Of a stretch of 53,186 bases of DNA, positions 1,577 to 28,659 are shown in pieces. A program made the position numbers and the translations under genes. The DNA comes from an uncultured Selenomonadaceae bacterium (GTDB lineage: Bacteria > Bacillota > Negativicutes > Selenomonadales > Selenomonadaceae). Under the pieces are notes generated by a model. The model saw only the letters and a program-made list of their open reading frames with translations. It did not search any database and was not told where the DNA came from. Position 1 is the stretch's first letter. The number at the start of each line of letters is the position of its first letter. Location of the stretch: positions 1-53,186 of the forward strand of contig CAJOMO010000004.1 in assembly GCA_905235685.1 (NCBI GenBank), read 5' to 3'.

Positions 1577-2146
1577 TTGGCGGACGACAAAAAAATTGTA
1601 GTTGAAAATGAGGACGGTGACAGCGCGGAGTTAAATGCAAATCTGGCATCTTCTCCGGAAGAAATAAACGCGGATAACAACGATTTAAATTTGCTGGCGG
1701 ATTTGGAAAAAGTTAAAACCGAACTCGCGGCGAAAAATGACAGACTTTTAAGGTTACAGGCGGATTTTGACAATTTCCGCAAGCGCGCGGCTAAAGACAA
1801 ATCCGAATTGGGCGCGTCGATTGAGCAAAATTTTTTGGCTGATTTATTGCCGGTGGTTGATAATTTCGGGCGGGCGCTTTCTCACAGCGAAACTTCGGAC
1901 GCCGAGACTTTGCGCAAAGGCATTACAATGATTTGGAATGAATTTGTCAAAGTCCTCACCAAACACGGGCTTGAAGCTATCGATACTGAAAATCAGAAAT
2001 TCGACCCGCATTATCATCAATCCGTCGGCAATGTCAAAGACGAAACTAAGGAAGACGATATGATTGCCGCCGAACTTCAGCGCGGTTATATGGCGCACGG
2101 CAAAGTCATTCGTGCAAGTATGGTTCAAGTTGTTAATAATGATTAA
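1577..2146 (+). CDS. grpE: Nucleotide exchange factor GrpE
   Basis: A 189-residue cytoplasmic co-chaperone that releases ADP from DnaK. The acidic N-terminus (about 1-45) is followed by a long coiled-coil helix ending in LRLQADFDNFRKRAAKDK, the helical bundle with LLPVVDNFGRALS, and the C-terminal beta domain with FDPHYHQSV and the GYMAHGKVIRASMVQV tail, all typical of GrpE. The start is TTG, placed 8 nt after GAAAGGGG. It is followed after 18 nt by dnaK. Two divergent GrpE-like proteins occur elsewhere in the window (11698-12273 and 24781-25851), each with its own Hsp70. Confidence 0.96.
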   Translation: MADDKKIVVENEDGDSAELNANLASSPEEINADNNDLNLLADLEKVKTELAAKNDRLLRLQADFDNFRKRAAKDKSELGASIEQNFLADLLPVVDNFGRALSHSETSDAETLRKGITMIWNEFVKVLTKHGLEAIDTENQKFDPHYHQSVGNVKDETKEDDMIAAELQRGYMAHGKVIRASMVQVVNND

Positions 2147-2164
2147 TTTTGGAGGCAAAAAATT

Positions 2165-4021
2165 ATGAGTAAAGTTATCGGTATAGATTTAGGTACTACA
2201 AACAGTGTTGTTAGCGTATTGGAAGGCGGCGAGCCTACGGTTATCACGAATCCGGAAGGCAGCAGAATCACGCCGTCGGTTGTCGGTTTTACGAAGGACG
2301 GGCAGCGCCTTGTTGGGCAGTTGGCGAAACGTCAAGCTGTTTCAAATCCGGACAGAACAATTTCGTCAATTAAGCGCCATATGGGCGAAAGTTATAAAGT
2401 TACGATTGACGGCAAAGATTATACGCCGCCGGAAATTTCCGCGATGATTTTGCAGAAACTCAAGGCTGACGCAGAAGCTTACCTCGGCGAAACCGTCACG
2501 CAGGCTGTTATCACCGTTCCGGCTTACTTCAACGACAGCCAACGTCAAGCTACCAAAGACGCCGGTAAAATCGCCGGTTTGGAAGTTTTGCGCATAATCA
2601 ACGAGCCCACGGCGGCGGCGCTTGCTTACGGGCTTGACAAAGACAACGACGAAACTATTTTGGTTTTCGACTTGGGCGGCGGTACTTTCGACGTTTCTAT
2701 TCTTGAATTGACTGAAGGCACTTTCGACGTTCAAGCCACCAATGGCGATACGCATTTGGGCGGCGACGATTTCGACAAAAAAGTTATGGACTGGATGGTT
2801 GGCGAATTTAAGAAAGAAAATGGCATTGATTTGTCGACTGATAAAATGGCGGCGCAACGTTTGATTGAGGCGGCTGAAAAGGCTAAAATCGAACTTAGCT
2901 CAATGACTTCGACGAATATTAATCTGCCGTTTGTAACAGCCGACGCGAGCGGTCCGAAACATTTGGATTTGACTTTGACGCGTGCCAAATTTGACGAACT
3001 CACGCGCGATTTGGTTCAGCGTACAATGGGTCCGACCAAAAAAGCTATGGCTGACGCGAAACTTGAGGGCAAAGATATCGACAAAATTATTCTGGTTGGC
3101 GGCTCGACGCGTATTCCGGCTGTGCAAAATGCTATTCGCGAAATTCTCGGCAAAGAACCTTCCAAAGGCATCAATCCGGACGAATGCGTTTCAGTTGGCG
3201 CGGCTATCCAGGGCGGCGTTTTGTCGGGCGAAGTCAAAGACGTGCTCCTGCTTGACGTTACGCCGTTGTCTTTGGGAATTGAAACTTTAGGCGGTGTTTG
3301 CACGAAAATTATTGAGCGCAATACAACCATTCCTACGCAAAAATCGCAAGTCTTTTCGACGGCGTCTGATAATCAGTCGAGCGTTGAGATTCACGTTTTG
3401 CAAGGCGAGCGCGAAATGGCTGCGGGCAATAAAACTTTGGGCAGATTCGTACTTAGCGATATTCCGCCCGCGCCGCGTGGCGTTCCGCAAATCGAAGTTA
3501 CTTTCGACATTGACGCAAACGGTATCGTCAACGTTTCCGCGAAAGACAAAGGTACTGGGCGCGAACAAAAAATTACAATCCAATCTTCAAGCGGCATGAG
3601 CAAAGAAGATATCGACCGCATGGTTAAGGAAGCGGCGGCGCACGAAGCTGAAGATAAAAAACAGCGCGAGGCGGCGGACGCTAAAAACGAAGCCGAGCAA
3701 ACCGTTTATCAGGCGGAAAAAACTTGCAAAGACTTCGAAGGCAAAGTTGACGCCAATTTGATTAAAGACGTTCAAACGGCGGCTGAATCTTTGAAATCCG
3801 ATTTGAATAATGCTGACGTCGAGACGCTCAAGAAAAAAACTGAAGCCGTTCGTCAAGCGCTGTACAAATTGAGTTCGGCGGCTTATCAGAGCGGCGCGGC
3901 GGGGCAGAATTACAGTCAACAAAGCGATAATTCTTCACAACAACAGGAAAATACTAAGGCTGAAAGTGACGACGGCACGATTGACGCCGAATATACCGAA
4001 ATGCGCAAGGACAAAAAATAA
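2165..4021 (+). CDS. dnaK: Molecular chaperone DnaK (Hsp70)
   Basis: A 618-residue canonical Hsp70. The ATPase domain (1 to about 365) shows [17 protein letters not shown], the [10 protein letters not shown] hinge, [14 protein letters not shown] and the adenosine motif [15 protein letters not shown]. The [11 protein letters not shown] linker leads into the substrate-binding beta domain and a helical lid with a Q/S/N-rich tail ending in the acidic [11 protein letters not shown]. Strong ribosome binding site GGAGGC. Works with GrpE upstream and DnaJ downstream. This is the only one of the three Hsp70s in the window with the complete standard architecture. Confidence 0.98.
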
Positions 4022-4053
4022 TCCGTAAACATTTTTCATAAGTAAAATCGACG

Positions 4054-4088
4054 CGGGGAGAGAGCTTAATACTCTCTTCCCGTTATTT
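4054..4088 (+). terminator. dnaK-dnaJ intergenic hairpin, attenuator-like
   Basis: An 11-bp stem with one G-U pair (4054-4064 with 4072-4082, loop of 7) is followed by TTATTT. The weak U tract and its position inside the operon suggest partial termination or mRNA processing that lowers dnaJ relative to dnaK, rather than a full stop. Confidence 0.6.
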
Positions 4089-4105
4089 GCGTAGAGGGTG
4101 AGATT

Positions 4106-5284
4106 ATGGCAGACAAACCTAAGGACTTGTACGAAATTCTCGGCGTTAATAAAAACGCCACCGACGACGAAATTAAGAAGGCTTACAAGAAACTGGCGAA
4201 ACAATATCATCCGGATTTAAACCGCGAAGATCCCAAAAAAGCCGAGGAAAAAATGAAGGAAATTAACGTCGCCTACGATATTTTGAAAGATCCGCAGAAA
4301 CGCGCGCAATACGACCAATTTGGACACGCGGCTTTTCAACCAGGCGGCGGCGGTGGCGGTGCTGGCGCTGGATTTGGCGGCTTTGACGGCTTTGATATGG
4401 GCGGTATGTTCAACGGCGGCACTTTCGATATGGGCGATATTTTCGAGCAATTTTTCGGCGGCGCACGGCGAAATTCAAATCGTCAGCCTGGACCGGAGCG
4501 CGGCGCTGATTTGCGTTACGATTTGACGATTAGCTTTGAAGACGCGGCTTTTGGCAAAGAAATGAATATCAAAGTTCCGCGAATGGAGCCTTGCGAAGAA
4601 TGCGACGGCACGGGCGCGGCTAAGGGAACTACGCCGGAAACTTGCCCCGATTGTAAAGGTACGGGCATGCGGCAAACTATGACGCGCACGGCTTTTGGCG
4701 TTATCTCAAATGCGCGCCCCTGCGAGCGCTGTCACGGCACAGGCAAAATTATAAAAAATCCTTGTCCGCACTGTCACGGCAACGGCAAAGTTCGCGTCGA
4801 GCGCGATATCAAAGTCAATATTCCAAAGGGCGTCGACAATGGCACGCGGCTTCGTATTCAAAACGGCGGGCAGGCGGGCACACGCGGCGGCTCGGCGGGC
4901 GATTTGTACGTTTACATAAATATCAAGCCGCATCAGACTTTCACGCGCGAAGGCGTTGACGTTTATTGCGAAGTGCCGATTAGTTTTGTCCAGGCAACTT
5001 TGGGCGCGACTGTCAAAGCGCCGACTCTTGACGGCTTGATTGAGCTGAAAATTCCCGAAGGTACGCAATCCGGCACTGTTTTAAGAATCCGCGGCAAAGG
5101 TATTCAGCAACTGCGCGGTGAAGGGCGCGGCGACGAATTTGTCAAGGTTAAAGTTTTGACGCCGAAAAATCTTTCCGCATATCAGCGAAAACTTTTGCAG
5201 GACTTTGAAAAAAGCGGTACTGACGCGACCAATAATCCGGAACAAAAATCTTTCCTCGACAAGCTGAAGGATTTGTTCAAATGA
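4106..5284 (+). CDS. dnaJ: Co-chaperone DnaJ (Hsp40)
   Basis: A 392-residue class A J-protein. The J domain (about 7-72) carries YHPD; a Gly/Phe-rich linker with a GGGGGGAGAG run follows (about 75-130). The zinc-binding region has four CxxCxGxG repeats: CEECDGTG, CPDCKGTG, CERCHGTG and CPHCHGNG. The C-terminal peptide-binding domain is complete. It stimulates DnaK ATPase and delivers clients. Ribosome binding site AGAGGGTGAG. It is the only J-domain gene in the window although three Hsp70s are present. Its stop overlaps the next start (ATGA). Confidence 0.98.
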   Translation: MADKPKDLYEILGVNKNATDDEIKKAYKKLAKQYHPDLNREDPKKAEEKMKEINVAYDILKDPQKRAQYDQFGHAAFQPGGGGGGAGAGFGGFDGFDMGGMFNGGTFDMGDIFEQFFGGARRNSNRQPGPERGADLRYDLTISFEDAAFGKEMNIKVPRMEPCEECDGTGAAKGTTPETCPDCKGTGMRQTMTRTAFGVISNARPCERCHGTGKIIKNPCPHCHGNGKVRVERDIKVNIPKGVDNGTRLRIQNGGQAGTRGGSAGDLYVYINIKPHQTFTREGVDVYCEVPISFVQATLGATVKAPTLDGLIELKIPEGTQSGTVLRIRGKGIQQLRGEGRGDEFVKVKVLTPKNLSAYQRKLLQDFEKSGTDATNNPEQKSFLDKLKDLFK

Positions 5285-5844
5285 TTTACCTGCAACTTTT
5301 CCTTGAATTTGCAAAAATCAGTCTGGTATGCGTGGGCGGCGGTTATGCGTCAATGCCGCTGATTCAAGCGGTAGTCGTCGACAATTACCATTGGCTGAGC
5401 ATGAGCGAATTTATTGACGTGTTTACAATTTCGCAAATGACGCCAGGACCGATAGGAATAAACGCAGCGACTTTTTCGGGAATGAAGACGGCGGGAATTT
5501 TCGGGGCAATCTGCGCGACGATGGGTTTTGTGACGCCGAGTATATTTCTGTGCATAATTTTGGCGAAGATAATTTTCAAGTACGGCGACCTCGGCGCAAT
5601 TCACGGGATTTTAAACGGCTTGAGACCGGCGGTAATGGCGTTAATCGCGGCGGCGTGCATAAGTTTCGTTTTAATGGCAGTTTGGAACGTTGAAGAAATG
5701 CCGGAAGATTTTTCGTCGACTTTCGACTTGAAGAGCGCAATAATTTTAATCGGCGCGTTAATTGCGGTGCGGCTGAAAATCGGCGTCATAAAAGTTTTAA
5801 TCGCGGCGGGCGTTGCGGGAATAATTTTAGGAAGGATTTTTTAA
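5281..5844 (+). CDS. Chromate transporter family protein, short (single-domain) form
   Basis: A 187-residue integral membrane protein. CVGGGYASMPLIQ near the N-terminus and ISQMTPGPIGINAATFSG match the CHR (ChrA) domain. Known short CHR proteins are usually encoded as adjacent pairs that form one transporter, whereas only one is present here; the next gene is too small and unlike it. It could act as a homodimer or move another anion. The ATGA overlap with dnaJ and zero spacing to the next gene indicate cotranscription with the chaperone operon, which is unusual. Confidence 0.85.
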   Translation: MIYLQLFLEFAKISLVCVGGGYASMPLIQAVVVDNYHWLSMSEFIDVFTISQMTPGPIGINAATFSGMKTAGIFGAICATMGFVTPSIFLCIILAKIIFKYGDLGAIHGILNGLRPAVMALIAAACISFVLMAVWNVEEMPEDFSSTFDLKSAIILIGALIAVRLKIGVIKVLIAAGVAGIILGRIF

Positions 5845-6078
5845 ATGTTTCTGACTTGGTTTAAAATTGTATGCGAAATAAACTTTTTCATATTTCCAAT
5901 AAGCGCGGGATTTTTGACGTACCGAAAAATTCACGGCAGACCGGCGGGGCGATATTTAACCATGACGATAATGAGCGGAATTGTGCTGATATTGTCGTGG
6001 ATTGGATTTTTGATAAACCACACGCCGGAGCAAAAGGCGGAAATGATTAAGCAAATCGAAGAATCTTTGAACGAGTGA
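5845..6078 (+). CDS. Small membrane protein of unknown function
   Basis: 77 residues with two predicted membrane segments (about 8-24 and 38-57) and a charged C-terminal tail EQKAEMIKQIEESLNE. It starts immediately after the chromate-family stop codon, with AGGAAGG upstream, so it is a genuine translated unit of the operon. I do not recognise the family. Its place between two carriers suggests a membrane accessory role, which is inference. Confidence 0.6.
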   Translation: MFLTWFKIVCEINFFIFPISAGFLTYRKIHGRPAGRYLTMTIMSGIVLILSWIGFLINHTPEQKAEMIKQIEESLNE

Positions 6079-6084
6079 TTGAAA

Positions 6085-7026
6085 ATGTTTAGCAATTTTA
6101 TAGTGGCGTTGAGCGCGGTATTGCCAATGTTTTGTTTGATGGCGGTCGGGGCGTTCGTGAAAATGAGCAAATTGCTCACGGACGAAGAACTTAACCACAT
6201 GAACAGAATGGTTTTCCGCGTGTTTTTTTTCTGTATGTTATTCTACAGCATTTACACGACGGATTTGTCGGCAACATTTCGCCCGAATTTAATGTTGTTC
6301 GGCGCGTGCAGTGTACTTTTGCTTTTCGTTTTGTTAATGATAATAATTCCGCGGATTGAGCCGGAAAATAAGCGGCGCGGCGTAATGGTGCAGGCGATTT
6401 TTCGTAGCAATTTTGTAATAATGGGCGTGCCGATAGTTGCGAATATTTTTGGCGATGAAAATATCGCTGTAACGACAATGATGATAGCCGTTATAATTCC
6501 GATGTACAATATTTTAGCGGTATTTGCGCTTGAAACGTTTCGCGGCGGGAAAATTGCAATTCTGCCGATTTTAGCGGGAATAATAAAAAATCCGCTGATA
6601 TTGGGCGCATTGGCGGGCGCGGTTTTTTTGAATTTGGGCATACATATTCCCGCGCCGATATTGAAACCGATTGGGCAAATTTCCGCGGCAACAACACCGG
6701 TCGCGTTAATAATTTTGGGCGCGTCGTTCAAATTTGGTAGCGTCCAGGCGCACGTCAAGCAATTAATCAAGTGCGTATTCAGCAGGTTAATTTTAGTGCC
6801 GGCGGTAGTTTTGGGCGTGGCGGTAATTTTGGGATTTCGCGGAATAGATTTCGTAACGTTGATAGCAATATTCTGTTCGCCCTGCGCGATAGTTTCTTTT
6901 GCAATGGCGCAACAAATGGGCGGCGACGCTGACCTTGCCGGAAATTGCGTAGTTTTTACTTCGGCGTTATCCTGCGTGACGATTTTTGGCTGGGTGCTTT
7001 TCTTCAAAACGCTCGGTATCTTTTAA
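6085..7026 (+). CDS. AEC-family (auxin efflux carrier/malonate-type) transporter
   Basis: A 313-residue protein with about ten hydrophobic segments in two halves. The N-terminal half includes GAFVKMSKLLTDEELNHMNRMVFRVFF and the C-terminal half includes PLILGALAGAVF, ISAATTPVALIILGASF and the re-entrant CSPCAIVSFAMAQQMGGD, all typical of bacterial AEC permeases (MleP/MdcF relatives). Substrate cannot be read from sequence; organic acids are common for the family. An in-frame TTG lies 6 nt upstream, but ATG at 6085 has the better-spaced GAGTGA. Last gene of the unit; repeat copy B follows 8 nt after its stop. Confidence 0.85.
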   Translation: MFSNFIVALSAVLPMFCLMAVGAFVKMSKLLTDEELNHMNRMVFRVFFFCMLFYSIYTTDLSATFRPNLMLFGACSVLLLFVLLMIIIPRIEPENKRRGVMVQAIFRSNFVIMGVPIVANIFGDENIAVTTMMIAVIIPMYNILAVFALETFRGGKIAILPILAGIIKNPLILGALAGAVFLNLGIHIPAPILKPIGQISAATTPVALIILGASFKFGSVQAHVKQLIKCVFSRLILVPAVVLGVAVILGFRGIDFVTLIAIFCSPCAIVSFAMAQQMGGDADLAGNCVVFTSALSCVTIFGWVLFFKTLGIF

Positions 7027-7034
7027 ACAGTATT

Positions 7035-7173
7035 CAGCATTTCTTTTCACGAAAAGAAACGCTGGCAAAGAAAAGGGCGGCGCGGATTGTCACATCACGT
7101 GATACTAAAGAGCATGCCTTGCTTACGCAAGCCACGCAAGCGCGCCGCGTGGGCCGCCATCCGGCGGCCTCTT
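7035..7173 (+). repeat. Structured 3'-end repeat, copy B (complete)
   Basis: Begins 8 nt after the AEC-carrier stop. Hairpin 1 pairs 7040-7048 with 7051-7059. A second partner arm AAAGAAAAG is at 7067-7075. Hairpin 2 is 7087-7093 with 7099-7105 around loop ATCAC, with its outer pairs decayed compared with copy A. A small extra stem CTTGC/GCAAG lies near 7118-7131. Hairpin 3 pairs GGCCGCC at 7152-7158 with GGCGGCC at 7163-7169 around ATCC. It lies between convergent genes and could also serve as a bidirectional end. No open reading frame of note and no transposase are in it. Confidence 0.88.
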
Positions 7174-7188
7174 ATTTTCGGTTGATTG

Positions 7189-7686
7189 TTAAAATAATGT
7201 CAGCTGTCCATATTCCGGTTCATCGTCAAGTTGCGGCGTTGATACCGGATTTTTTTGTGTCAAAGCGGCGTTTCGAGCAATTTTGTCGCAGCGCTCATTT
7301 AAACTATCGCCCGCGTGTCCTTTCACCCAATTAAATTTTATCTGCCGATTTTCAACAAGCCGATCCAATTTTTGCCACAAATCTTTATTCAAAACCGCGT
7401 CTTTGTTGGCAGTCTTCCAACCGTTTCGTTTCCAATTCGCCAGCCAGCCCTGAGTAAATGCATTTTTCAAATATGCGCTGTCAGTAAAAAGTTCGGCAAA
7501 ATCTTCAGCCGTAATTTTTTTCAAAGCCATAATCGCCGCCGTTAATTCCATTCGGTTATTCGTCGTGCGTGGCGCACTCCCAAAAATTTCTTCGCAATTG
7601 CCGTCCGCGTCAAAAATCAGCGCCGCATAACCGCCCGCGCCCGGGTTGCCCAAACATGAGCCGTCCGTGTAAATTCTGTAATCCAT
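7189..7686 (-). CDS. rnhA: Ribonuclease HI with a C-terminal clamp-binding-like tail
   Basis: A 165-residue type 1 RNase H that cuts the RNA strand of RNA-DNA hybrids. The catalytic set is present at the same numbering as in the E. coli enzyme or within one or two residues: D8 (YTDGS), E47 (NRMEL), D69 (FTDSAY), H124 (KGHAG) and D134 (ERCDKIA). A longer in-frame extension exists upstream, but ATG at 7686 has an ideal AAGGAGG 8 nt before it. The last five residues are QLTLF, a match to the bacterial sliding-clamp-binding consensus QL[SD]LF. Divergent from uvrC. Confidence 0.96.
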   Translation of the reverse strand: MDYRIYTDGSCLGNPGAGGYAALIFDADGNCEEIFGSAPRTTNNRMELTAAIMALKKITAEDFAELFTDSAYLKNAFTQGWLANWKRNGWKTANKDAVLNKDLWQKLDRLVENRQIKFNWVKGHAGDSLNERCDKIARNAALTQKNPVSTPQLDDEPEYGQLTLF

Positions 7687-7750
7687 AGCAAGGCCTCCTT
7701 GACGCGTATGATAAACTATTGCCAAAATAAAAGCTAGAGGTTGACGCGCT

Positions 7751-10014: not shown

Positions 10015-10038
10015 AAACTTGTCAATATTCTGTGCGGA

Positions 10039-11676
10039 TTAATCGGCGGAAATGCGGAGCTGATGAACGGCGCTTTTTTCAACGTCGATATCGGATTCAG
10101 TTCTCAAGAAAGTTTCAAAAACCTCGTTAGTTTTGGTGTTGACGGCTTCGACATGCACGCCGGACGCGTCGACTTTAAAAGTGACTTTAATTGGCGTGGT
10201 GCGCGAAGTTTCGGGCGGCAAATTTACAATCAATTCGCCCAAAAGTTTTACGGCGTTAGCGGGGTCGGTGGTTTGCGGGTTGCCTTCTTCGTCGACGCAG
10301 GGGATAAGCGTATCTTCGAGCGACATATTTTCGAAGGCGCGCAGTCTTACGCGTTCCTGGTTATCTTCAAGCGGGTAATAAGTTTTGCTGAAAACGGCGG
10401 GCATTTTTTCGCCAATCTTGATAAAATTTTCGAGGACGTAAACTTGCTTGCTGCCTTTGGTATCCATAACGCCAGGACCGAATGAGCGGGGCGTCTGATC
10501 TTCCACGGTGAATTTAGCGGTGAGTTGTTCGACGGCGGGCGAAATTTTTTCGTCGGAAGTATCGCCGGAAGTTTCGCCGCTTTGAACGCCGCCTTCTTCA
10601 ACAACGAGCATACTTGCGTAAATCGCCGCGCCCTTTGCAACAGCCTGGTCGGGGTCGTGTTGCTGAACTTTGCCAAGGAATTTCGCTTCAACCGCATTTT
10701 GAATCATCGGCATGTAAGTTGAGCCGCCGACTAAAAGCACGGTGTCAATTTCAATTCCAGGAATTTTATCCAGCACGCGGTCAACCAACATCATTGTCGT
10801 ATTCACAAGGTCGGAAGTCATATTTTCGAAATCTGCGCGAGAAATTGTAATTTCGGTACGCGAGCCGTTGACGTCGATACGAACTTTGGAAGACTGCTTT
10901 TTACTAAGTTTGCGTTTGGCGTCTTCAACTTTGCTGCGAATATCCTGCCGCGTTTCAACTTCAATTTCTTCGGGCGTCAAGCCGTTTTCGTCACAGCACG
11001 CGCGCAAAACGTGATTGAAAAGTCTGTCGTCCCAGTCTTTGCCGCCGAGCGTATCTTCGCCGTCGCTGGCAAGGACATTTATTTTTTGGACGTCTTTACC
11101 TTGAGCGTTTCGCGCCATCGACATTTTTATAATCGTGACGTCGAAAGTGCCGCCGCCCAAATCATAAACCAAAATTGTTCTGTCTTCTTGAAATTGACGC
11201 GCGCAGTAACTCAAAGCTGCGGCGGTTGGCTCATTAATCAAACTCAAAACGTGCAAGCCCGCCAATTCGCCCGCCTGTTTGGTTGCGCTGCGCTCTTCAA
11301 GCCCGAAATACGCAGGAACGGTTATAACGACGTTTTCAATTTCGTTGCCCTGCGATTCGACAAGATTTTTAAGGCGCGTCAAAATCAGCGCGCTAATTTC
11401 TACCGGCGTATAAGTTTTGCCGTCAAATTCGTAAGTGCGCCCGTTGGGTTTGCCAATTTCGCGTTTGACGAATTGAACAACGCGGTCGCCGTCAGTTTCA
11501 ATATTTTCTTTCGCCGCCTGTCCGACGACAACGTTATGCTCATTTTCAAAAAAAACTACCGAGGCAACCATATTGGAATCGTCTTCGTTATTGCGAATGA
11601 CTTCGGGGTTGCCGTTCGAATCCAGCCGCGCAATGCAAGAATAAGTTGTTCCAAGGTCGATACCGTAAGTGCTCAT
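10039..11676 (-). CDS. Divergent Hsp70-family chaperone lacking the helical lid
   Basis: 545 residues. The ATPase domain is intact: [59 protein letters not shown] and LVGGSTYMPMIQNA. The linker region (about 350-385) is Gly/Ser/Thr-rich and lacks a DnaK-type DVTPLSLG. A beta-type substrate-binding domain follows (about 390-530). The protein then stops, so the C-terminal helical lid of DnaK is missing, which in other Hsp70s permits fast or large-client binding. It follows a GrpE-like gene after 21 nt. No J-protein adjoins it. It resembles HscC-like specialised Hsp70s; clients are unknown, and the upstream pseudopilins are candidates. Confidence 0.88.
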   Translation of the reverse strand: MSTYGIDLGTTYSCIARLDSNGNPEVIRNNEDDSNMVASVVFFENEHNVVVGQAAKENIETDGDRVVQFVKREIGKPNGRTYEFDGKTYTPVEISALILTRLKNLVESQGNEIENVVITVPAYFGLEERSATKQAGELAGLHVLSLINEPTAAALSYCARQFQEDRTILVYDLGGGTFDVTIIKMSMARNAQGKDVQKINVLASDGEDTLGGKDWDDRLFNHVLRACCDENGLTPEEIEVETRQDIRSKVEDAKRKLSKKQSSKVRIDVNGSRTEITISRADFENMTSDLVNTTMMLVDRVLDKIPGIEIDTVLLVGGSTYMPMIQNAVEAKFLGKVQQHDPDQAVAKGAAIYASMLVVEEGGVQSGETSGDTSDEKISPAVEQLTAKFTVEDQTPRSFGPGVMDTKGSKQVYVLENFIKIGEKMPAVFSKTYYPLEDNQERVRLRAFENMSLEDTLIPCVDEEGNPQTTDPANAVKLLGELIVNLPPETSRTTPIKVTFKVDASGVHVEAVNTKTNEVFETFLRTESDIDVEKSAVHQLRISAD

Positions 11677-11697
11677 TTATAAATTTCCCCCAATTAT

Positions 11698-12273
11698 TTA
11701 TTCGTTGTTAACAATTTCAGTTTCCGGCGCAGTTTCAATCGTCGAATCGAAAACGTAAACGTCAACAAATTCGCGATAAAGCGGGCGTCCATTGCGAACG
11801 ACTCCTGCGCGACGGCTTTTGGCGATAGTATTGTGCAAAACTCTATCGTTAGTCGAAATGGTGTTGATAATTTTGGTCAACAACGGACGCCGCGGCTCGC
11901 CGATTTTGGAATTAAAAATTTCCGCGCCGTAATCGGCAAGAATATCTTCAATTTCGTCAAACATCAGCTGCAAAGTTCGACGAGTATTTTGTGAAATAGT
12001 TTCGTCGGCAAGGAGCGTTCGATATTCCACGCAAATTGCCGCCAAAGACTTTAAAATCGGCGTGAATTGTTCGCCGCGCTGTTGTTTGCGCAAATCTTCC
12101 AAATCGTTGTACATGCCTTGCCGCACTTGATTTTGAAAATTTATATTCTCGCGCAGAACTTGATTCAGCAACCGCGAATTTTTGTCCTGCTGATTGAGAA
12201 TTTCGTTAATCATTTCCACCAATTTATTTAAATCAAACTGCGCCGCGTCGAAATCTTCATTATTAGAGTCCAT
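11698..12273 (-). CDS. GrpE-like nucleotide exchange factor paired with the lidless Hsp70
   Basis: 191 residues with very strong AAGGAGG ribosome binding site. The N-terminal half is a predicted coiled coil (about 10-75, many Asn/Gln/Leu), followed by a helical region, and the C-terminus has RRAGVVRNGRPLYREFVDVYVFD, which resembles the GrpE tail pattern G-x(3)-NG-x-x-x-RPA-x-V-x-V. Overall identity to the GrpE at 1577-2146 is low. Size, fold pattern and the adjacent Hsp70 support a dedicated exchange factor. An alternative is a general coiled-coil adaptor of the Hsp70. Confidence 0.68.
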   Translation of the reverse strand: MDSNNEDFDAAQFDLNKLVEMINEILNQQDKNSRLLNQVLRENINFQNQVRQGMYNDLEDLRKQQRGEQFTPILKSLAAICVEYRTLLADETISQNTRRTLQLMFDEIEDILADYGAEIFNSKIGEPRRPLLTKIINTISTNDRVLHNTIAKSRRAGVVRNGRPLYREFVDVYVFDSTIETAPETEIVNNE

Positions 12274-12336
12274 AAGCTCGCCTCCTTCGATTTATTTTCG
12301 CAAAAAAATTCGTCAAATCGCCGCAACTTTCCTGCC

Positions 12337-12759
12337 TTACAAATCATTGACAAAGTAAACAGTTTCTTCGCCGTCGAGAACGTAAGCCAGAGCCCGCCGA
12401 TAAATTTTGCCTTCAGTAAAAACGGCGTCGCAACTCGCCACCGCCATAAAAATTGTTCCAGGTTTAGGCTCTTCGTCAATTTCTCCCGAAAAGTAGCCGT
12501 CCGTTTTGAAACGAATAGCCTCTGTCTTGCTCACAATTTGAACGGTGATATTTCCGAAAGTCATGGAAGTTAAACTCGGATTTTTAACCGCCGCAAGCAA
12601 AGCACTTTCAGCGGCGTTTTGCAGTTCAAATTCCAACTCAGAATTTCTCACGCCGCGCGAATAATTTGCCTCGAACTCTTGTACGCCTTTAATTGAAAGA
12701 GCCGCTGCCAACAGCAAACATAATCCTATGACTGTAAAAAAGCCGCGTTCGTTTTTCAT
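12337..12759 (-). CDS. Minor pseudopilin, PilX/GspK-like position
   Basis: 140 residues. It starts with a short basic leader and a class III cleavage-like site MKNERG|FFTVIGLCLLLAAALSIKG, then one hydrophobic helix and a small soluble domain. The Glu normally at position +5 of mature pilins is absent (Val), as in GspK-type tip pilins. It begins inside the stop of the previous pilin gene (ATGA overlap) with GGAG 8 nt upstream. Fourth of four pilin-like genes. It would be processed by a prepilin peptidase encoded elsewhere. Confidence 0.72.
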   Translation of the reverse strand: MKNERGFFTVIGLCLLLAAALSIKGVQEFEANYSRGVRNSELEFELQNAAESALLAAVKNPSLTSMTFGNITVQIVSKTEAIRFKTDGYFSGEIDEEPKPGTIFMAVASCDAVFTEGKIYRRALAYVLDGEETVYFVNDL

Positions 12760-13328
12760 ATTTTAAACTCCTCGCAGGCGGGCATGTAAACCGCGGTGTT
12801 AAATTTGACGCTTTGTCCGGTAACCAAACTTTCAAGTTCGAGCGTGACGTGCAAAACTTTTTCCGCCGGCTTAGAAAATTTCAGCGTCCGAACAACGGTA
12901 TCGCCGTAAAAATTATCGCCGCTCAGCGGGTTATTATGAGCCTCGCCCATTTGCCGCTTAAAGTAAATGTGAAACGCTTTGCCCTCCGCGCTGTCCACGG
13001 TGTAAATTCTTTGGCAAAAGGTATCGTAAAAACCGGAGTCATTTTTTTTAACGCTGTTGGTGTGGCAAACGAAAATCACGGTTTGAAAATCGCCCAAACC
13101 GCTAGCTTTTTTCACTTCGACGGAATGGGCGGCGCGGGCGTCATTTGAAATTCTGTCGATAATTTCTTGCGCCTCGGTTTCCAAAACATAATCGGCGACT
13201 TGTTTTTTGGCAATATCCCAAATTTTTAAATTCACCGAGCCGAGCGCATACAACAGCAAAATTAAAAGCGGCAAAGCTATCGCAAATTCCATCAGCACAA
13301 AGCCGCGCTGATTCGATTTTAAATTCAT
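12756..13328 (-). CDS. Minor pseudopilin, PilW/GspJ-like
   Basis: 190 residues. Type IV prepilin leader SNQRG|FVLMEFAIALPLLILLLYA with Glu at mature position +5, then a coiled N-terminal helix and a beta-rich soluble domain with two Cys. Third gene of the pilin operon, overlapping the fourth. PilW/GspJ assignment rests on gene order and size rather than a diagnostic motif. Confidence 0.72.
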   Translation of the reverse strand: MNLKSNQRGFVLMEFAIALPLLILLLYALGSVNLKIWDIAKKQVADYVLETEAQEIIDRISNDARAAHSVEVKKASGLGDFQTVIFVCHTNSVKKNDSGFYDTFCQRIYTVDSAEGKAFHIYFKRQMGEAHNNPLSGDNFYGDTVVRTLKFSKPAEKVLHVTLELESLVTGQSVKFNTAVYMPACEEFKI

Positions 13329-13376
13329 TAGGCTATGCGCCCTTTCATTGCAAAAAAAATTCTGCTATACTAAAAG

Positions 13377-13733
13377 CTAGGGAATAATTTTCCGGAAAAT
13401 AATTTCTTGCGGCTGATTTCGGAAAGTCCACTTGACGGTCACGGTTGCCAAATTTTCGTTAAACGCGGTATGAACTTCGAAAGTAACCGTCGAAGAATCG
13501 TCTTTGCCGCCGTTCAAACTTTTCAAATCTTCCGCGGGGATTGAGGCGCCTGAATGACTTTCCAACAGCGCGAATTGTTCTTTCGCAAGATTTATCGCCG
13601 TCAATCGGAGCGTGGAATTTCTTTGCTGAACTTTCGCCTGCGTGTTCATCAAAATCATTGCCGCCAACGAAACTATCAGCGTTAAAAATACCGCGCTCAA
13701 CAGCATCAAGCCGCGCTCATTTAGGTTTTTCAT
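13377..13733 (-). CDS. Minor pseudopilin, PilV/GspI-like
   Basis: 118 residues. Leader MKNLNERG|LMLLSAVFLTLIVSLAAMIL followed by a helix and a short beta domain. Position +5 is Ser rather than Glu, which is unusual for a GspI-type pilin. An in-frame upstream extension of 18 residues has no pilin character, so the internal ATG is chosen; it overlaps the preceding gene by 17 nt, which fits translational coupling. Confidence 0.7.
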   Translation of the reverse strand: MKNLNERGLMLLSAVFLTLIVSLAAMILMNTQAKVQQRNSTLRLTAINLAKEQFALLESHSGASIPAEDLKSLNGGKDDSSTVTFEVHTAFNENLATVTVKWTFRNQPQEIIFRKIIP

Positions 13734-14232
13734 AACTTCCGCGGATTCGCCCGACGCTGTTAACGGTGATATAAGCTTTATCGCCAAATCGCGACGTCAA
13801 AGTAATTGTGCCGTCAGCCGCCCCATTGTTGGCGTTCAAGCCCTTCCCTTGACTGTCGAAAGCAATAATTTTCAATGCGGCAGGATAACTAAATTGGAAA
13901 CCGGACGCCCAAAAATGTTTGTCGATAAAATCTGTCAAGCTGTTGTTTTCGTGCTTAATCAAATAATTGGTTTTTTGAATATGCAGCCGAACTCGCCCCG
14001 CGCCGGTATCAAATACGTTGGTGAAAATCGAGACGTTGTACTTGGTTAATTTGTCGACAGAGCGCGTAAAATGCAAAGTGCTGTAGAGGCGTTTCATTTC
14101 GTAATTCAGAGAAATTTTGTCGAGGACGCGCGCCATTTTCGGAACGGTGACTGTTGCAAGAATCGCGATTATCGCCGTTGCCAAAATAATTTCGAGCGCC
14201 GCCAATCCGCGCTGATTTTTTAATTTATCCAT
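13717..14232 (-). CDS. Minor pseudopilin, FimT/GspH-like
   Basis: 171 residues. Leader KNQRG|LAALEIILATAIIAILATVTVP with Glu at +5 and the Pro near +22 of classical type IV pilins, then TLHFTRSVDKL and a beta-rich globular domain as in GspH/FimT. First gene of the leftward operon. No clear ribosome binding site precedes the ATG, and a -10-like element lies only 9 nt upstream, so its message may be leaderless. Such minor pilins prime assembly of a type IV pilus, a type II secretion pseudopilus or a DNA-uptake pilus; no assembly ATPase or platform gene is in the window. Confidence 0.78.
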   Translation of the reverse strand: MDKLKNQRGLAALEIILATAIIAILATVTVPKMARVLDKISLNYEMKRLYSTLHFTRSVDKLTKYNVSIFTNVFDTGAGRVRLHIQKTNYLIKHENNSLTDFIDKHFWASGFQFSYPAALKIIAFDSQGKGLNANNGAADGTITLTSRFGDKAYITVNSVGRIRGSYEKPK

Positions 14233-14241
14233 AACGACAAA

Positions 14242-14270: not shown

Positions 14271-14281
14271 GGAAGGTTTTT

Positions 14282-16138: not shown

Positions 16139-16149
16139 GGGGAAAATTT

Positions 16150-17579: not shown

Positions 17580-17584
17580 CCGCG

Positions 17585-17614: not shown

Positions 17615-17639
17615 GCAATAAAAACGGTTGGGAGATTAA

Positions 17640-18938: not shown

Positions 18939-18950
18939 GGCGAAACCGAT

Positions 18951-19574: not shown

Positions 19575-19604
19575 TTTTCGATAATAATTTTAGGGGGAAT
19601 TTTT

Positions 19605-20282: not shown

Positions 20283-20285
20283 ACT

Positions 20286-21619: not shown

Positions 21620-21631
21620 AGGAGTGATTTA

Positions 21632-22396: not shown

Positions 22397-22448
22397 TACT
22401 ATTCTCTTTCGCGTTAATGTGATAAAATTCAGCTGAGGAGGTGTCCCC

Positions 22449-23417
22449 GTGGATTATTTACTGGTAATTTTGTCGACGGTCGCGGTAATATTCGGCGGCA
22501 AGGCGTTTTGGGATTGGAAAAAAAATCGGACGCCGCAACTGGATTTAGAGGAACTCGAAGAGGATAGGGCTGAATATTTGCAGGAAAACTTCGATAAGGC
22601 GATGGCTGATTTTAAATATTTGGAAGAGGCGCGCCACGAAATTACAGACCGCGAATTGGCGGCGCAACTTGCCCGTATGCAACGCATTGCCAAAAAGTTG
22701 CTGGCTAACCTTGAAAAAAATCCCGACCGAATCCCGCTGGCTTATAAATTTATCGATTATTATCAAGATCGCGCAGTTAAAATCGTCAAGCAGTATCAAG
22801 ATTTGGAGGAAACCGAACTTTCGACTGATCGCGTCCGCGATTTGAAGGCGCGAATGAAATTGACACTCGCCGCCCTTGACGACGCCTATGAAGACCAATT
22901 TGAACACGTGCTTAACGACCAAATGATTTCCGCCGAGGCTGAATTGAAAGTTATGGAACAGCAGCTTGACGCGGAAGGTATTAAGCGAAAAACTGTCGAC
23001 ATCGGGCAGATTGACGAATTTGGAAACGTGCGAATTGATACGGATTTGTTGAATCAACCGCTGGGCGGAATTGAGCGCCGAAATTTGCCCATTCAGCCGC
23101 GCCGCCGCCGCATTTACGATGACGACGACGACGATTTGATTGAGTTTCCGGAAAATGAGCGTCCGGAGATTATTCAGAAAAAGTTAGTTCAATCGGCGCT
23201 GGCGTTATTTTTGGGCTCAATCGGCGCGCACAAATTTTATCAAGGTAAAACTTTTCAAGGCATTTTGTACCTTTTGTTTTGCTGGACATTTGTTCCTGGT
23301 TTTATCAGTTTCATTGAAGGCGTGCGGTATTTATTTATGCCGGTTGAAGATTTTTACGAACAGTACATCAAAAAGCCTAAGGACAAAAACAAAAACGGAC
23401 GCAACAAACGCCGGTAA
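22449..23417 (+). CDS. XpaC-like coiled-coil protein fused to a TM2 domain
   Basis: 322 residues, GTG start after GAGGAGGTG. One N-terminal membrane helix (about 2-18) is followed by a long charged helical region (about 30-190). LLANLEKNPDRIPLAYKFIDYY and IVKQYQDLEE there follow the pattern of the XpaC family, the partner of TelA-type toxic-anion-resistance proteins. A linker with five consecutive Asp (about 221-230) leads to a TM2 domain: ALFLGSIGAHKFYQGKTF, two hydrophobic segments and a Lys/Arg-rich tail. The fusion of these two parts is unusual. Cellular role is unknown; envelope stress is a guess. A terminator follows. Confidence 0.75.
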   Translation: MDYLLVILSTVAVIFGGKAFWDWKKNRTPQLDLEELEEDRAEYLQENFDKAMADFKYLEEARHEITDRELAAQLARMQRIAKKLLANLEKNPDRIPLAYKFIDYYQDRAVKIVKQYQDLEETELSTDRVRDLKARMKLTLAALDDAYEDQFEHVLNDQMISAEAELKVMEQQLDAEGIKRKTVDIGQIDEFGNVRIDTDLLNQPLGGIERRNLPIQPRRRRIYDDDDDDLIEFPENERPEIIQKKLVQSALALFLGSIGAHKFYQGKTFQGILYLLFCWTFVPGFISFIEGVRYLFMPVEDFYEQYIKKPKDKNKNGRNKRR

Positions 23418-23433
23418 TTCAAGCACGAAAAAA

Positions 23434-23462
23434 GCCCCGATAAATTTCGGGGCGATTTTTTT
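23434..23462 (+). terminator. Rho-independent terminator after the XpaC-TM2 gene
   Basis: Stem GCCCCGA (23434-23440) with TCGGGGC (23447-23453), loop of 6, followed by GATTTTTTTATT. It also has an A run on the left side and so could end transcription of the minus-strand tRNA-Thr gene. Confidence 0.92.
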
Positions 23463-23468
23463 ATTCAG

Positions 23469-23541
23469 AGCTGGCTAAGGGACTTGAACCTTCGACCTGC
23501 GCATTACGAATGCGCTGCTCTACCAACTGAGCTAAGCCAGC
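23469..23541 (-). tRNA. tRNA-Thr (anticodon CGT)
   Basis: A 73-nt cloverleaf. Acceptor GCTGGCT pairs with AGCCAGC. The D arm is GCTCAGTTGGTAGAGC. The anticodon stem GCGCA/TGCGC holds loop TTCGTAA with anticodon CGT, reading ACG. The T arm loop is TTCAAGT, but its stem GAAGG/CCCTT has an A-C mismatch in the middle and an outer G-U pair. CCA is not encoded. Confidence 0.94.
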
Positions 23542-23665
23542 ATTTTTCACAACGCGGCAATTCTAACACCGAAAATTTATTTTGTCAAGCCCGCACATTT
23601 CAAATTTACATTTACAAATTTCTAATTGGCTGTTAGAATAATTTCAAATTTAAGGTGGTGAGAAT

Positions 23666-24766
23666 TTGGCTACGAGCGGGAAGATAATTTTCATGGCGAT
23701 AGGCGGCGCGCAGGAAGTCGGCGCGAGCTGTTATTATCTGAATCTGGGCGGCGAAAATTTTTTGCTGGATTGTGGCTACGGGCGAAACGAAGGAATTTAT
23801 TTCGCGCCTAAATTTAATGAGCTGCTTTACGCGCCTTTCATTCAAGATTTCCATCAAATTTCTCACGTCTTCATTTCGCACGCGCATATGGATCACATTG
23901 GCGCTTTGCCGGATTTTTTGCAGCTCAATGAACGCGCTAATGTTTACATGACTAATTTCACTTGGCAGATAATGAATCTTCAGCTCGGCGACAGATTGTC
24001 GCGGCGCGCGCAGGACAATATTTCGCGCGTGTCTTTTTTGCAGGAAATTCCGCTTGAAAATATTTCGGCGTCATTTCACCAGGCGGGGCATATTCCAGGC
24101 GCAATGATGGTACTTTTCAAATTCGGCGGCAAAAATATTCTTTACACGGGCGATTATTCAACCTTCGCAACGCCGCTTGTCAACGCCGCCATTTTACCGA
24201 AAGTTAAAATTGACGTGCTGATTCTTTGCGGACTCCACGCGCGCCATTATTTTTATCGGACAAATGACGCCGCTTTTCAAAAAATCCTCCGGCAAATTCG
24301 CTACAGCTTGAGTTGCGGCAGAATCGCCTGCTGTCAAGTAAATCAGATTAGCAAAGGCATCGAACTTTTGAGTTTGCTGAATAAATTTTTGCCGGACGTA
24401 GAAATTTTTTTGAGCGACAAGGTTATGGATATGGTTTATTGCTTTGAAAATCTGAATTTGAAAATTATGCAGGAGCGCGCCCATCCGCTGAAAAAATTTC
24501 CGGCTAAACCGAGTGTGATTATTTCCGCTGAATCGGCGCGTTTTTGGAACTGCGAAATTATTAATTGCGATTTTTCCTTGCACGACGATTTTTCTGCCGT
24601 TGTGAATTTTGTTCGGAAAATTAATCCGGAAATTTGCCTTGTCGTCCACAGCCCGCCGGATAAAATTTTCCATTCCGATATAACAATTGAGCAAATTTTA
24701 ATCAAAGAGCCGGATTCGCGCACGAATTTTATTTTTCCGGAACTTTATCAGCCGCTTGAAATTTGA
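23666..24766 (+). CDS. Metallo-beta-lactamase fold hydrolase, beta-CASP-like
   Basis: 366 residues, TTG start after AAGGTGGTGAG. The metal site is intact: HAHMDHIGALP, then HIPGAMMV and YTGDYS. The following region resembles the beta-CASP cap of RNase J/CPSF-type RNA nucleases (NQISKGIELLSLLNKFLP), but the usual E-S-T-Y-G-x-R-x-H motif appears as CGLHARH, so the acidic residue of motif A is lost. No KH-type C-terminal extension is present. It probably acts on RNA or DNA or is an inactive relative. It precedes a GrpE-like and a long Hsp70 gene; its stop lies just before the next ribosome binding site, so the three are likely cotranscribed. Confidence 0.78.
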   Translation: MATSGKIIFMAIGGAQEVGASCYYLNLGGENFLLDCGYGRNEGIYFAPKFNELLYAPFIQDFHQISHVFISHAHMDHIGALPDFLQLNERANVYMTNFTWQIMNLQLGDRLSRRAQDNISRVSFLQEIPLENISASFHQAGHIPGAMMVLFKFGGKNILYTGDYSTFATPLVNAAILPKVKIDVLILCGLHARHYFYRTNDAAFQKILRQIRYSLSCGRIACCQVNQISKGIELLSLLNKFLPDVEIFLSDKVMDMVYCFENLNLKIMQERAHPLKKFPAKPSVIISAESARFWNCEIINCDFSLHDDFSAVVNFVRKINPEICLVVHSPPDKIFHSDITIEQILIKEPDSRTNFIFPELYQPLEI

Positions 24767-24780
24767 GGAGGGTTACCGCT

Positions 24781-25851
24781 TTGAAAAAAAATACCGTCAA
24801 ATTGGATGCCAAAGAGCCGATTATCAAAAAATTTATCGACACTGTTCACAACGGGATTAACAGGCGATTAAAAAATTTGTCAAGCCATTCGGAAGTCGAT
24901 TATGTTTTCGAGAGCCGCGTTTTCAAATTGCTCTGCGAAGACAGACACCTCAGCGCTAAACATTGCGTTGAAAAATTGAATGACAAATACAATTACAACA
25001 CCGACGAGGAGGCTGTGATTCGCGTTTTCCGCTCCAATTCAATTACAACTATGGATAGCCGCGACGAACTTGTCAATTGGGCTATTTCGGCTGTCGACGC
25101 GTTTGTTCAAGCTTTAATTTCGCGCAATGAGCAGGACAGCGAAAAATATTTCAAACTTCAAGGCAGTTACGATTATTGGCGGATTAAGAGCAAAGTTTTT
25201 TGCCTTATGTTTTATCAAATGCACCCCGAGATTAATATCGGCGACGATTTGATTAATTTTGAAAAGTTCGGCAGAATTTACGCCCAATACATTCGCTACG
25301 ATATGAATGATTTTCTGCGTGATATTTGCGGCGTCCAAAATCGCGGCAAAAATAAAAATCCCAAACGCACCGAGAGCGAGCGCCTCAAAGACGAACTCGC
25401 GCGAAACGAAATGCTTGTTAAGGATCTGCAGGAAGATTTTGACGCACGCCTTGAAGAAAATCACCAAAATGAAATTGCTGATTTTTTTGCGCGGTTAAAT
25501 TCCGAAAGGTACGGTTGCATTTTGGACGCGGTGATAAATGTTCGCGGCGGTATTCAAAAACTCCGCAAGCAAAATGTGGAATTGCCGCCGGAAATTAGCG
25601 GGCTTTTTATCTTGATTGACAATCTCGTTAAATTTGTGCGCGACAATGAAATTAATCCGATTATGAAACTCGGTTCAGTTCATTCGATGAAAGCCGGCGA
25701 TATCGAAAATTATTCCGGCGATTACGAAGGCTCACCCTACGCCGACGCGGAAGAAATTAAAAAGCTGAAAGTTCTTTCGCCTGGCTGGTACTACAAAAGC
25801 AAGGATATTCAAATTTCCCGTCCGCGGCTCAAAGAGTACGCTGACAAATAG
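24781..25851 (+). CDS. Large GrpE-like protein paired with the 929-residue Hsp70
   Basis: 356 residues from a TTG start with an ideal GGAGGG 8 nt upstream. The first 200 residues are helical and unlike anything I recognise. From about 205 a coiled coil (RLKDELARNEMLVKDLQEDF) leads to a helical bundle with LFILIDNLVKFVRDNEINPI and a small C-terminal domain ending in PGWYYKSKDIQISRPRLKEY. This order, and motifs like the GrpE pattern L-x-x-x-DN-L followed by a V/I-x-R-P-x-V tail, suggest a GrpE module at the C-terminus. It lies 18 nt before the Hsp70. Function as its exchange factor is inference from sequence pattern and position. Confidence 0.6.
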   Translation: MKKNTVKLDAKEPIIKKFIDTVHNGINRRLKNLSSHSEVDYVFESRVFKLLCEDRHLSAKHCVEKLNDKYNYNTDEEAVIRVFRSNSITTMDSRDELVNWAISAVDAFVQALISRNEQDSEKYFKLQGSYDYWRIKSKVFCLMFYQMHPEINIGDDLINFEKFGRIYAQYIRYDMNDFLRDICGVQNRGKNKNPKRTESERLKDELARNEMLVKDLQEDFDARLEENHQNEIADFFARLNSERYGCILDAVINVRGGIQKLRKQNVELPPEISGLFILIDNLVKFVRDNEINPIMKLGSVHSMKAGDIENYSGDYEGSPYADAEEIKKLKVLSPGWYYKSKDIQISRPRLKEYADK

Positions 25852-25869
25852 TCGATTGGAGGCGATTTT

Positions 25870-28659
25870 ATGGTTATCAATATTGGCAACGAACAGCACA
25901 ATGATTTGTGCGTTGGAATTGATTTGGGAACGACCAATTCCGTTTTGGCGACAATAAATGTTAAACTGAATGGTGATATTGTCAGCAAAGTTGTTGGAAT
26001 TGATCGCGCAATTGACATGTTCGGGCGCGATTTCAAATTCACGACAAGGAGAGATTTGACTTTGCCGAGTTGTGTTTATTACAACGAGGAGAAAAATTTT
26101 GCGCCGATTGTGGGCAATTTTGCGAAAAGCAGATATTCAATTCGCCCGCATTTGGTTGCAAAATCCATTAAAAGCCAAATGGGTAACGTCAAAGCCGATG
26201 GACTTGACCCGAATATTCCCGATAAAACGCCGGCGGCAATTTCTGCGCGAATTTTGAGGCATATGCTTCAAAGCGCGGCAAAAACTAGTCGACAAGACAG
26301 CATTACCGACGCGGTGATAACTGTTCCCGCAAGTTTCGACAGCGTTATGTGCCAGGCAACTTTGGAGGCGGCGCGCCTCGCCGGAATTAATATTTACAAC
26401 CGCGACGGCTCACTGCGCGAAATTCTTTTGCCCGAACCGCAAGCTGTCATTTACGATTTTGTTAATCAAGTTCACAACGGCGAAATTTCAACCAACATTT
26501 TGGATTTGAGCGCCGAAAGAAATGTTATGGTATTCGATTTGGGCGGCGGAACGCTCGATATCACTTTGCATAAAATTTCACGCCGCGAAGATGCGCCGGA
26601 AATTTTGAACGTCGAAGATTTAGCTATCAATCGCTATACACTTTTGGGCGGCGACGATTTTGATTTGCTCCTGGCAAATGCAATGTTCATGAGGTATTTG
26701 GATCAGTACCACACGCACGCTGATATTGTTCAATTGATTCGGCGCGAAGAATCCGCCGTCAAACCGCAACTTTTGAGTCACGCCGAGGAACTGAAAATTC
26801 AAGTTAGCGAGGATAAAAGCGGCAACTCCGGCGAAAACGCTGACGCCTGGGGCGACGACGAAGATAATTATCCCGTCGGCGGAAATATCAACGCGACCGG
26901 TTACGCCTATGACGACAGCTTTACAACCCAGGAACTTGAAAAAATTTGGCGCGTATTTATGGGCGAAGAATTTAAATTCGCCGATTTTAAAAATCTTGAC
27001 GCCGTTGCAAAAAATTACGGCACGCAAAATATTATTTTCCCGATTCTCGATGTGCTGAAAAAATGTGCCGATAAACTCGGAACTGACGATTTTAAAATTG
27101 ACGCGGTGATTATGAATGGCGGTATGTCACGCTTTTATATGGTCGTCGACAGGCTAAGGAGATTTTTCGGATTTGAGCCGATTGTAGCTCTTGACCCCGA
27201 TCAAGCAGTGGCGCGCGGCGCGGCGGTTTACCATTATTTTCGCCACAAATACGAAGAAAAAATTGCCGCGAATAATTTTTCTCAAGTTGAAATCGCGCCT
27301 GTTCAAACGCCGTACATTAACACCGTCCAAACAATTTTGCCGGACAGCCTGTACCTTGTCACGCAGGGCAACCGCTATGAAGAAATTATTCCAACCGGCA
27401 CGAAACTTCCCTATGAATCGGGAATTTTCACCGGATTTAAACTTCCCGCCAAAACAAATAAAATCAGCATACCTATCGCCCGCAAAAATAATGACGGTGA
27501 TTATATCGTCATCGCCAAAGGAAATCTCAACTTTCCCGAAAAATATTCCAGTTACGAAACTGAAACTTTCGTTGTTTTTACCGTGAATATGAATGAACAA
27601 AAAATTCTCCGCATTAATACCCATACCTGCAAAAATGTTGACGGCTCAGAAATTCTTGACGAAGGCACAACCGAAATTGCCATCGCAGACAAACATTCTC
27701 CGTCTCCAATTTCCAAACCCCAAATTGAAACAACGCGAATAAAATTGAAAGCTAACGAAGTCATTAATAATATTCTTGGCAACTGCAAAAAAATCGCGAG
27801 CGCCCAAAAACGCGGTTCGCCTATCAGCAACTATTCAAAAAATATTCGCTATGAGAAAAATCAAATTTTCAACGCCGCCAATCCCGAAGATTTTGCCGAG
27901 CCGCTCCTTCAAATGTTCCGCGACAATGGAAGCAATGAGATTTTTAAAATGCATTGTGAAATTATTGGGCGAAAAATCTGCGCGAAATGGACGGACGCGC
28001 AAAGACGCCGCCTTGCGAATCTGTGTATGGATCAACTTGAATACGCAATGACTTTTCACGGCGCTTTATTAACAGGAGCCGCCGTCAACACGAAAATTCA
28101 GGCGATTTATACTTTGTCAATGTGCGGGAGCGACGAAGATTTAGACAGGCTCAGAAGTTTGCACGATTATAAACAATTTAAATTGGCGAATCTTTATACG
28201 CACGCCATAACCAAAACCTGCGTTGAATGGATCTACGAAGAATTTCAGCAGGACAGCCACCTTGCACTGAAAAATATTAAAAATCACCTGCAACAATCGG
28301 CTCATGCATTGGGGACGGCTTTTCGACTTAATGACGAGCGCCCGAATTATTCTTCAATCAACAAGGGAAAAATCGTCACGGAACTTTTAAAACTTCTTCG
28401 TTCGAAAAAATTGCTGATATCCGAATTTATCAGCTGCGTTTTGGCGATAGGTTTGCTTTGCGACCGGCGCTATCCGAATCCGCTTGAGCAAAAATATATT
28501 GACAACGCGCAACAAACGTTTAATGAATTGGGCGTTATGTACGATAAGAATTTTATAGGAAAAGCGGATAAATTTAAGCTTACCGTCCAAAAAATGATGG
28601 AAGGTGTGCAACTCAGCGTTGAGGAAGAGGAATTTTTGCTGATTAAATTGGACGATTGA
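25870..28659 (+). CDS. Long Hsp70-family protein with a helical C-terminal extension
   Basis: 929 residues, GGAGGCG ribosome binding site. The ATPase domain (about 10-460) has [55 protein letters not shown] and [15 protein letters not shown], so nucleotide binding looks intact. An acidic insertion (about 313-350, with [10 protein letters not shown]) interrupts the lobe between the usual ELKIQ and ELEKIW segments. A beta-rich region follows (about 475-600), then about 320 mostly helical residues, far longer than the DnaK lid and reminiscent of helical-repeat proteins. No J-protein adjoins it. Role unknown; it belongs to the loosely defined long Hsp70s of bacteria. Confidence 0.88.

Follow-up and report, generated by a model that had tools for sequence, protein, structure and literature searches.

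Introduction

Textbook Hsp70s require a J-protein, and the beta domain of GrpE opens the nucleotide cleft of Hsp70. The specialized systems HscA-HscB and HscC-DjlB/DjlC, as described in PMC8215388, retain the J-protein and have lost the GrpE signature. Myxococcus xanthus possesses 15 Hsp70s, one of them 925 amino acids long, and two GrpE homologs (PMC8265645 and PMC11019930). A further system was described by Kaur et al. 2020: in approximately 14% of the GAP1-N2 neighborhoods, Hsp70 and GrpE are accompanied by an FNIII protein with a fused DnaJ or TPR region, and a subset carries a second Hsp70 that lacks the peptide-binding domain (PMC7159879). The present study concerns a 53,186-nucleotide stretch (hereafter, the window) of contig CAJOMO010000004.1, the fourth contig of an uncultured Selenomonadaceae bacterium (assembly GCA_905235685.1; 1.96 Mb, 99.8% complete), which is likely Quinella or a near relative, a rumen bacterium. 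It carries dnaK and two other Hsp70 genes, referred to as HspB and HspC, each lying directly behind a GrpE or GrpE-like gene; the two GrpE-like genes are referred to as geB and geC.

The geB-HspB and geC-HspC pairs resemble the DnaK-DnaJ-GrpE system in that an Hsp70 gene directly follows a GrpE-fold gene and the ATPase residues are present, but they lack a DnaJ gene, the J-docking arginine and the LLLD linker, and HspB also lacks the lid. Like HscA and HscC, they are specialized Hsp70s alongside DnaK; in contrast to these, as far as PMC8215388 covers them, the window pairs keep a predicted GrpE-fold partner and lose the J-docking arginine. HspB and HspC also score far below the NCBIfam HscA cut-offs. 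The multiplicity of Hsp70 paralogs in one genome recalls M. xanthus, for which, however, no one-to-one pairing of Hsp70 and GrpE-like genes is described in the passages of PMC8265645 and PMC11019930 consulted. In searches of an open-access library, we did not find such Hsp70 and GrpE-like pairs described elsewhere. We give a probability of about 0.5 to the reading that each pair is a self-contained, J-free Hsp70 switch, which is reset by its own GrpE-fold exchange factor.

Cognate pairs and the GrpE fold

The genes of the two pairs, together with the gene that precedes geC, are as follows.

10039..11676, minus strand: HspB, lidless 545-residue Hsp70 with a beta substrate-binding domain; serine in place of the J-docking arginine (Pfam, alignment)
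11698..12273, minus strand: geB, 191-residue partner of HspB, predicted GrpE fold (AF2 model, Foldseek, Pfam in relatives)
23666..24766, plus strand: MBL-fold protein, first gene of a trio with geC and HspC; RNase J/CPSF-like by profile, below the NCBIfam cut-offs (Pfam Lactamase_B, 44.5 bits)
24781..25851, plus strand: geC, 356-residue partner of HspC, helical N-terminal domain and predicted GrpE-fold C-terminal half (AF2, VIA-align)
24817..25326, plus strand: helical N-terminal domain of geC, residues 19-188 of a 362-residue reading (AF2; short paralogs of relatives)
25342..25848, plus strand: GrpE-like half of geC, residues 194-362 of the 362-residue reading from 24763 (AF2, VIA-align, LQ-x-[DE]-F motif)
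25870..28659, plus strand: HspC, 929-residue Hsp70 with a long C-terminal region without a Pfam match; J-docking arginine absent (Pfam, alignment)

The canonical set, which spans 1577-5284, is composed of three genes.

1577..2146, plus strand: grpE, 189 residues (Pfam GrpE, 152.4 bits)
2165..4021, plus strand: dnaK, 618 residues, with the J-docking arginine and the LLLD linker (the best PF00012 match of the genome; residues read)
4106..5284, plus strand: dnaJ (the sole PF00226 J-domain match of the genome)

All three pairs lie where the original prediction had placed them. Its spacing of 18-21 nucleotides agrees with the gaps calculated from the coordinates, which are 18 for grpE-dnaK, 21 for geB-HspB (12273-10039, minus strand) and 18 for geC-HspC (24781-28659, plus strand), and a purine-rich ribosome-binding site precedes each of the three Hsp70 starts. 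The Hsp70s of the window are distant from one another: DnaK shares 34% identity with HspB and 28% with HspC. The best Pfam HSP70 stretch of HspB stops at position 495 of the 599 profile positions, in accordance with the lidless form that had been proposed. HspC has the Hsp70 nucleotide-binding domain, and its region from approximately residue 456 to the C-terminus has no Pfam match. The most likely start of geC is the TTG at 24781 behind a GGAGG, which gives the 356 residues originally assigned to it.

The GrpE-like nature of geB and geC had been proposed from sequence pattern alone. Pfam GrpE matched neither window protein, and a sequence search of the PDB likewise returned nothing; for this reason, relatives and predicted folds were used instead. 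For geB, the AF2 model (pLDDT 70, pTM 0.31) has helices at residues 4-67, 72-88 and 95-114 followed by strands within 134-175. Foldseek placed GrpE at ranks 1 and 2 (E 0.012 and 0.016), and VIA-align was non-discriminating for this model, as it did not separate GrpE from hairpins. For geC (pLDDT 81.1), the top six VIA-align entries were all GrpE or GrpEL1, and in Foldseek GrpE appeared only at rank 46. Among the relatives, Pfam GrpE (PF01025; E up to 0.1) matched 18 of the 36 geB family rows (best E 2.3e-8) and 7 of the 40 geC family rows (best E 0.0015). The long-helix motif of GrpE (LQADF) occurs as LQ-x-[DE]-F in all 40 geC rows; geB carries a different conserved motif in 36 of 36 rows. Profile-profile comparison with GrpE gave E values of 0.02-0.07, and in the shuffle controls on these scores geC alone stood out, a GrpE-like protein of another contig (geD, see below) was marginal, and geB did not exceed the best shuffle. 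Taken as predictions, the models and the matches in relatives agree with the proposed assignment and give fair support to a GrpE fold in both proteins: a long helix, a short helix bundle and a C-terminal beta domain, including the helix pair and beta domain that a structure prediction had been expected to reveal.

The linkage of the pairs was examined in the named relatives, which are metagenome genomes of Selenomonadaceae/Selenomonadales, most of them from the rumen or elsewhere in the ruminant gut, with Quinella sp. 1Q5 and 1Q7 among them. HspB follows geB in 20 of 20 loci (the window included; one gap of approximately 1.4 kb). Among 54 named loci it does so in 51, with gaps of 0-397 nucleotides and one of 1345; one of the three misses has just 52 nucleotides of room. 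HspC follows geC in 20 of 20 loci, in all of which, the window again included, the MBL-fold gene lies upstream of geC. The pairs thus stay together as had been anticipated, and chance adjacency was rejected because the linkage is too strong. In family profile searches, 57 of the 66 genomes that belong to the genus had geB, versus 1 of 123 others, and geC was found in 40 of 66 versus 6 of 123. Four of the six geC loci outside the genus have the order MBL-geC-HspC and one has geC-HspC with no MBL-fold gene within 2.3 kb upstream; in the sixth, the contig breaks off after the MBL-fold gene and a partial geC. Decay of the Hsp70 copies was also rejected: in HspB, the catalytic Asp8, Lys70, Glu171, Asp194, Thr199 and Asp201 are each kept in 19 of 19 rows, and in HspC three of the sites are intact in 20 of 20 rows, and Asp194, Thr199 and Asp201 in 19 of 20, each with one gap.

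Several features accompany these genes. The MBL-fold protein scores 91 bits against NCBIfam aCPSF1, versus a cut-off of 580. In two relatives (L051, L041), a short geC paralog lies between the MBL-fold gene and geC; it has the helical N-terminal domain in common with geC and a different tail, and lacks the GrpE-like half. Directly upstream of geB (12337-14232), there are genes judged pilin-like by eye, whose families recur at this position in several relatives. HspC is directly followed (29040-34832) by two C39-peptidase ABC transporters and an HlyD protein, an order kept in one relative (L126).

Dependence on J-proteins

A PF00226 search of the whole genome gave one match, dnaJ, and neither window pair contains a J-domain gene. 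The claim that only the first set has a DnaJ therefore stands. Among 49 genomes of the genus, 36 have no or one PF00226 match and 13 have two or more. The residues for coupling to the J-protein were compared in an alignment that included E. coli DnaK, HscA and HscC as references, and that covered, besides HspB and HspC, three Hsp70 families of another contig (HspD, HspE and HspF). Arg167 and the LLLD linker function in the coupling of DnaK with J-proteins (PMC8215388 and PMC7289447). Arg167, the J-docking residue, is replaced by Ser/Asn in HspB (19 rows), Lys/Asn in HspC (20 rows) and Lys in HspD (10 rows); the site is mixed in HspE (19 rows) and occupied by Trp in HspF (2 rows). The arginine is kept in none of these 70 rows, some of which may represent the same gene in overlapping loci, and the LLLD linker is missing from all five families. 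In a second set of rows, five HspC rows from other genera also lack Arg167, while HspF keeps it in two of eight.

One alternative is that HspB and HspC are ordinary specialized Hsp70s with GrpE-like exchange factors, and that the lone DnaJ or an unrecognized J-protein still serves them. This is improbable in our estimation, though it accommodates several observations: most HspC and all HspD rows carry lysine at the Arg167 site, which could still pair with the HPD aspartate, D393 is retained in 17 of 19 HspB rows, and some relatives have a second J-domain gene. It does not accommodate the Ser, Ala, Gly or Trp at the Arg167 site in most HspB, HspE and HspF rows, the loss of the linker in all five families, or the J-free composition of the window pairs. 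From these sequence comparisons, independence of HspB and HspC from J-proteins is moderately supported; the original description of the pairs as being without J-proteins holds, with the lysines and the two HspF rows as caveats.

Relation to GAP1-N2 conflict systems

The GAP1-N2 theme shares with the present genes an Hsp70 beside GrpE, additional Hsp70s and, in some relatives, J-like and GTPase-like genes behind HspB. In a genome of a related genus (L242/L243), a single run contains DO-GTPase2 (over the cut-off), GrpE, Hsp70, Hsp70-vWA, a 776-residue protein, a second DO-GTPase2 match (just under the cut-off) and GAP1-N2. This GrpE was found by the geB profile (E 1.7e-10), and HspB is the nearest counterpart of the first Hsp70. 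Taken by itself, the J-like beginning of the 776-residue protein is weak (P 0.09 versus J-domains, 0.004 versus the Quinella-type protein). The latter is a large J-like protein encoded within 1.8 kb behind HspB; 12 of the 51 named loci have it, and 43 of the 51 offer at least 700 nucleotides of room. Its start resembles a J-domain and has no HPD in 18 rows from 12 genomes; it is approximately 1075 residues long (L127, L130, L131, L132, L138, L139), with a zinc-ribbon match below the cut-off and FNIII repeats recognized only by eye. In three loci, it is followed by a GTPase-like gene whose matches are below the cut-off. The layout of L242/L243, the match of its GrpE to the geB profile, and the J-like and GTPase-like genes behind HspB indicate that the B pair likely descends from this theme.

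It may be supposed that the pairs belong to NTP-dependent systems of the GAP1-N2 type that serve in conflict or regulation and in which the Hsp70 and GrpE set the effector threshold, the window forms being stripped down. The PMC7159879 theme itself, with its second Hsp70 and its FNIII-DnaJ/TPR protein, the related-genus run and the three GTPase-like genes are all in its favor, but we regard it as unlikely. Among the neighbors of HspB scanned in the window, there was no sign of a GTPase, GAP1 or J-like protein, and PF19993 had no match in the window genome; the latter is weak evidence, because 31 of 47 candidates were scored and the weak GTPase-like gene of a relative was missed as well. The GTPase matches of the three relatives are themselves below the cut-off. 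The MBL-geC-HspC trio and the D cluster described below are absent from the themes in section 29 of PMC7159879, which also gives neither J-docking residues nor GrpE fused to other domains. In PADLOC, the Hsp70s matched PDC-M61B alone, weakly, and geB, geC and the MBL-fold protein had no match at E 0.01; a PHROGs search returned nothing useful. We do not assign the B pair to a GAP1-N2 system, with neither GTPase nor GAP1 seen beside it, within the limits of the genome-wide GTPase search.

The D cluster and further pairs

Contig 15 of the genome carries HspD, geD, HspE and HspF in succession (L053:5236-10677). HspD is here divided into two overlapping open reading frames (424 and 125 residues), while relatives have one of approximately 520-540 residues. 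The geD alignment matched 191 Pfam families, mostly coiled coil, and the 25 that are listed do not include GrpE. With this and the marginal profile score, geD may be called GrpE-like on weak evidence only. The family occurs in 19 of the 80 genomes searched (the window genome included), all in the genus; in relatives, the N-terminus of geD is a long coiled coil or there is a second copy. HspD and HspF retain the catalytic residues at the positions covered. HspE lacks Lys70 in 4 of its 19 rows and Glu171 likewise in 4, and has Thr11 replaced by Ala in the window genome and in relatives; from these substitutions, HspE is possibly a non-hydrolyzing partner.

Of the 12 geD-family regions fetched, 6 have a member of a VgrG-like gene family upstream; the one such gene scanned by Pfam matched PF04717 at 44.9 bits (cut-off 23.8). 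Further upstream of VgrG, one relative has an AHH nuclease match just under the cut-off with a PAAR-like start judged by eye, and also an Imm11 gene just over the cut-off. In L153, L145 and similar relatives, two more proteins of approximately 1000 residues near the D cluster appear Hsp70/actin-like by eye. Two relatives (L160:12709-15399, L157:8471-11253) carry a further pair of GrpE (over the Pfam cut-off) and Hsp70, separate from B, C and D.

Discussion

In the J-free switch that we favor, the GrpE-like protein would open the nucleotide cleft of no Hsp70 but its neighbor, and recruitment of a partner, normally the task of a J-protein, would fall to its variable part (in geC the helical N-terminal domain, in the geD family the coiled coils). 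The partner of the C pair would likely be the MBL-fold protein of the operon; in some relatives, those of the B pair would likely be the HPD-less J-like protein and the GTPase-like protein, and that of the D cluster a VgrG-type spike. The ATP cycle would then hold the partner inactive or assemble it. It is quite unlikely that the GrpE-fold proteins are not exchange factors and that a dimeric fold was taken over to scaffold or inhibit the neighboring Hsp70, for, although the GrpE-signature loop of HspB is shortened and the window proteins have low sequence similarity to GrpE, the pairing is near-invariant and both the helices and the cleft-opening beta domain are predicted.

The original prediction spoke of parallel chaperone machines with separate clients. 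Cognate pairing, J-free with the caveats above, is retained from this picture; parallel machines with separate clients stay a supposition. The B pair is related to the Hsp70 and GrpE theme of the GTPase-centered conflict systems; in relatives, the D cluster has a VgrG-type spike gene next to it, and an MBL-fold gene adjoins the C pair. The pairs are therefore at least as likely to regulate operon partners as to fold clients in general. More tentatively, in this rumen lineage targeting may have moved from J-proteins to GrpE-fold proteins with fused adaptor domains, so that J-free motors, each with a private exchange factor, switch operon partners such as an MBL-fold nuclease or a contractile-spike effector.

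A GrpE-fold partner that multiplies while the J-docking site decays would reverse the rule for specialized bacterial Hsp70s. If this is true, target specificity can reside in exchange factors, small natural proteins become available in which to test how Hsp70 allostery works in the absence of a J-domain, and Hsp70 cycles would be tied to effector and nuclease operons.

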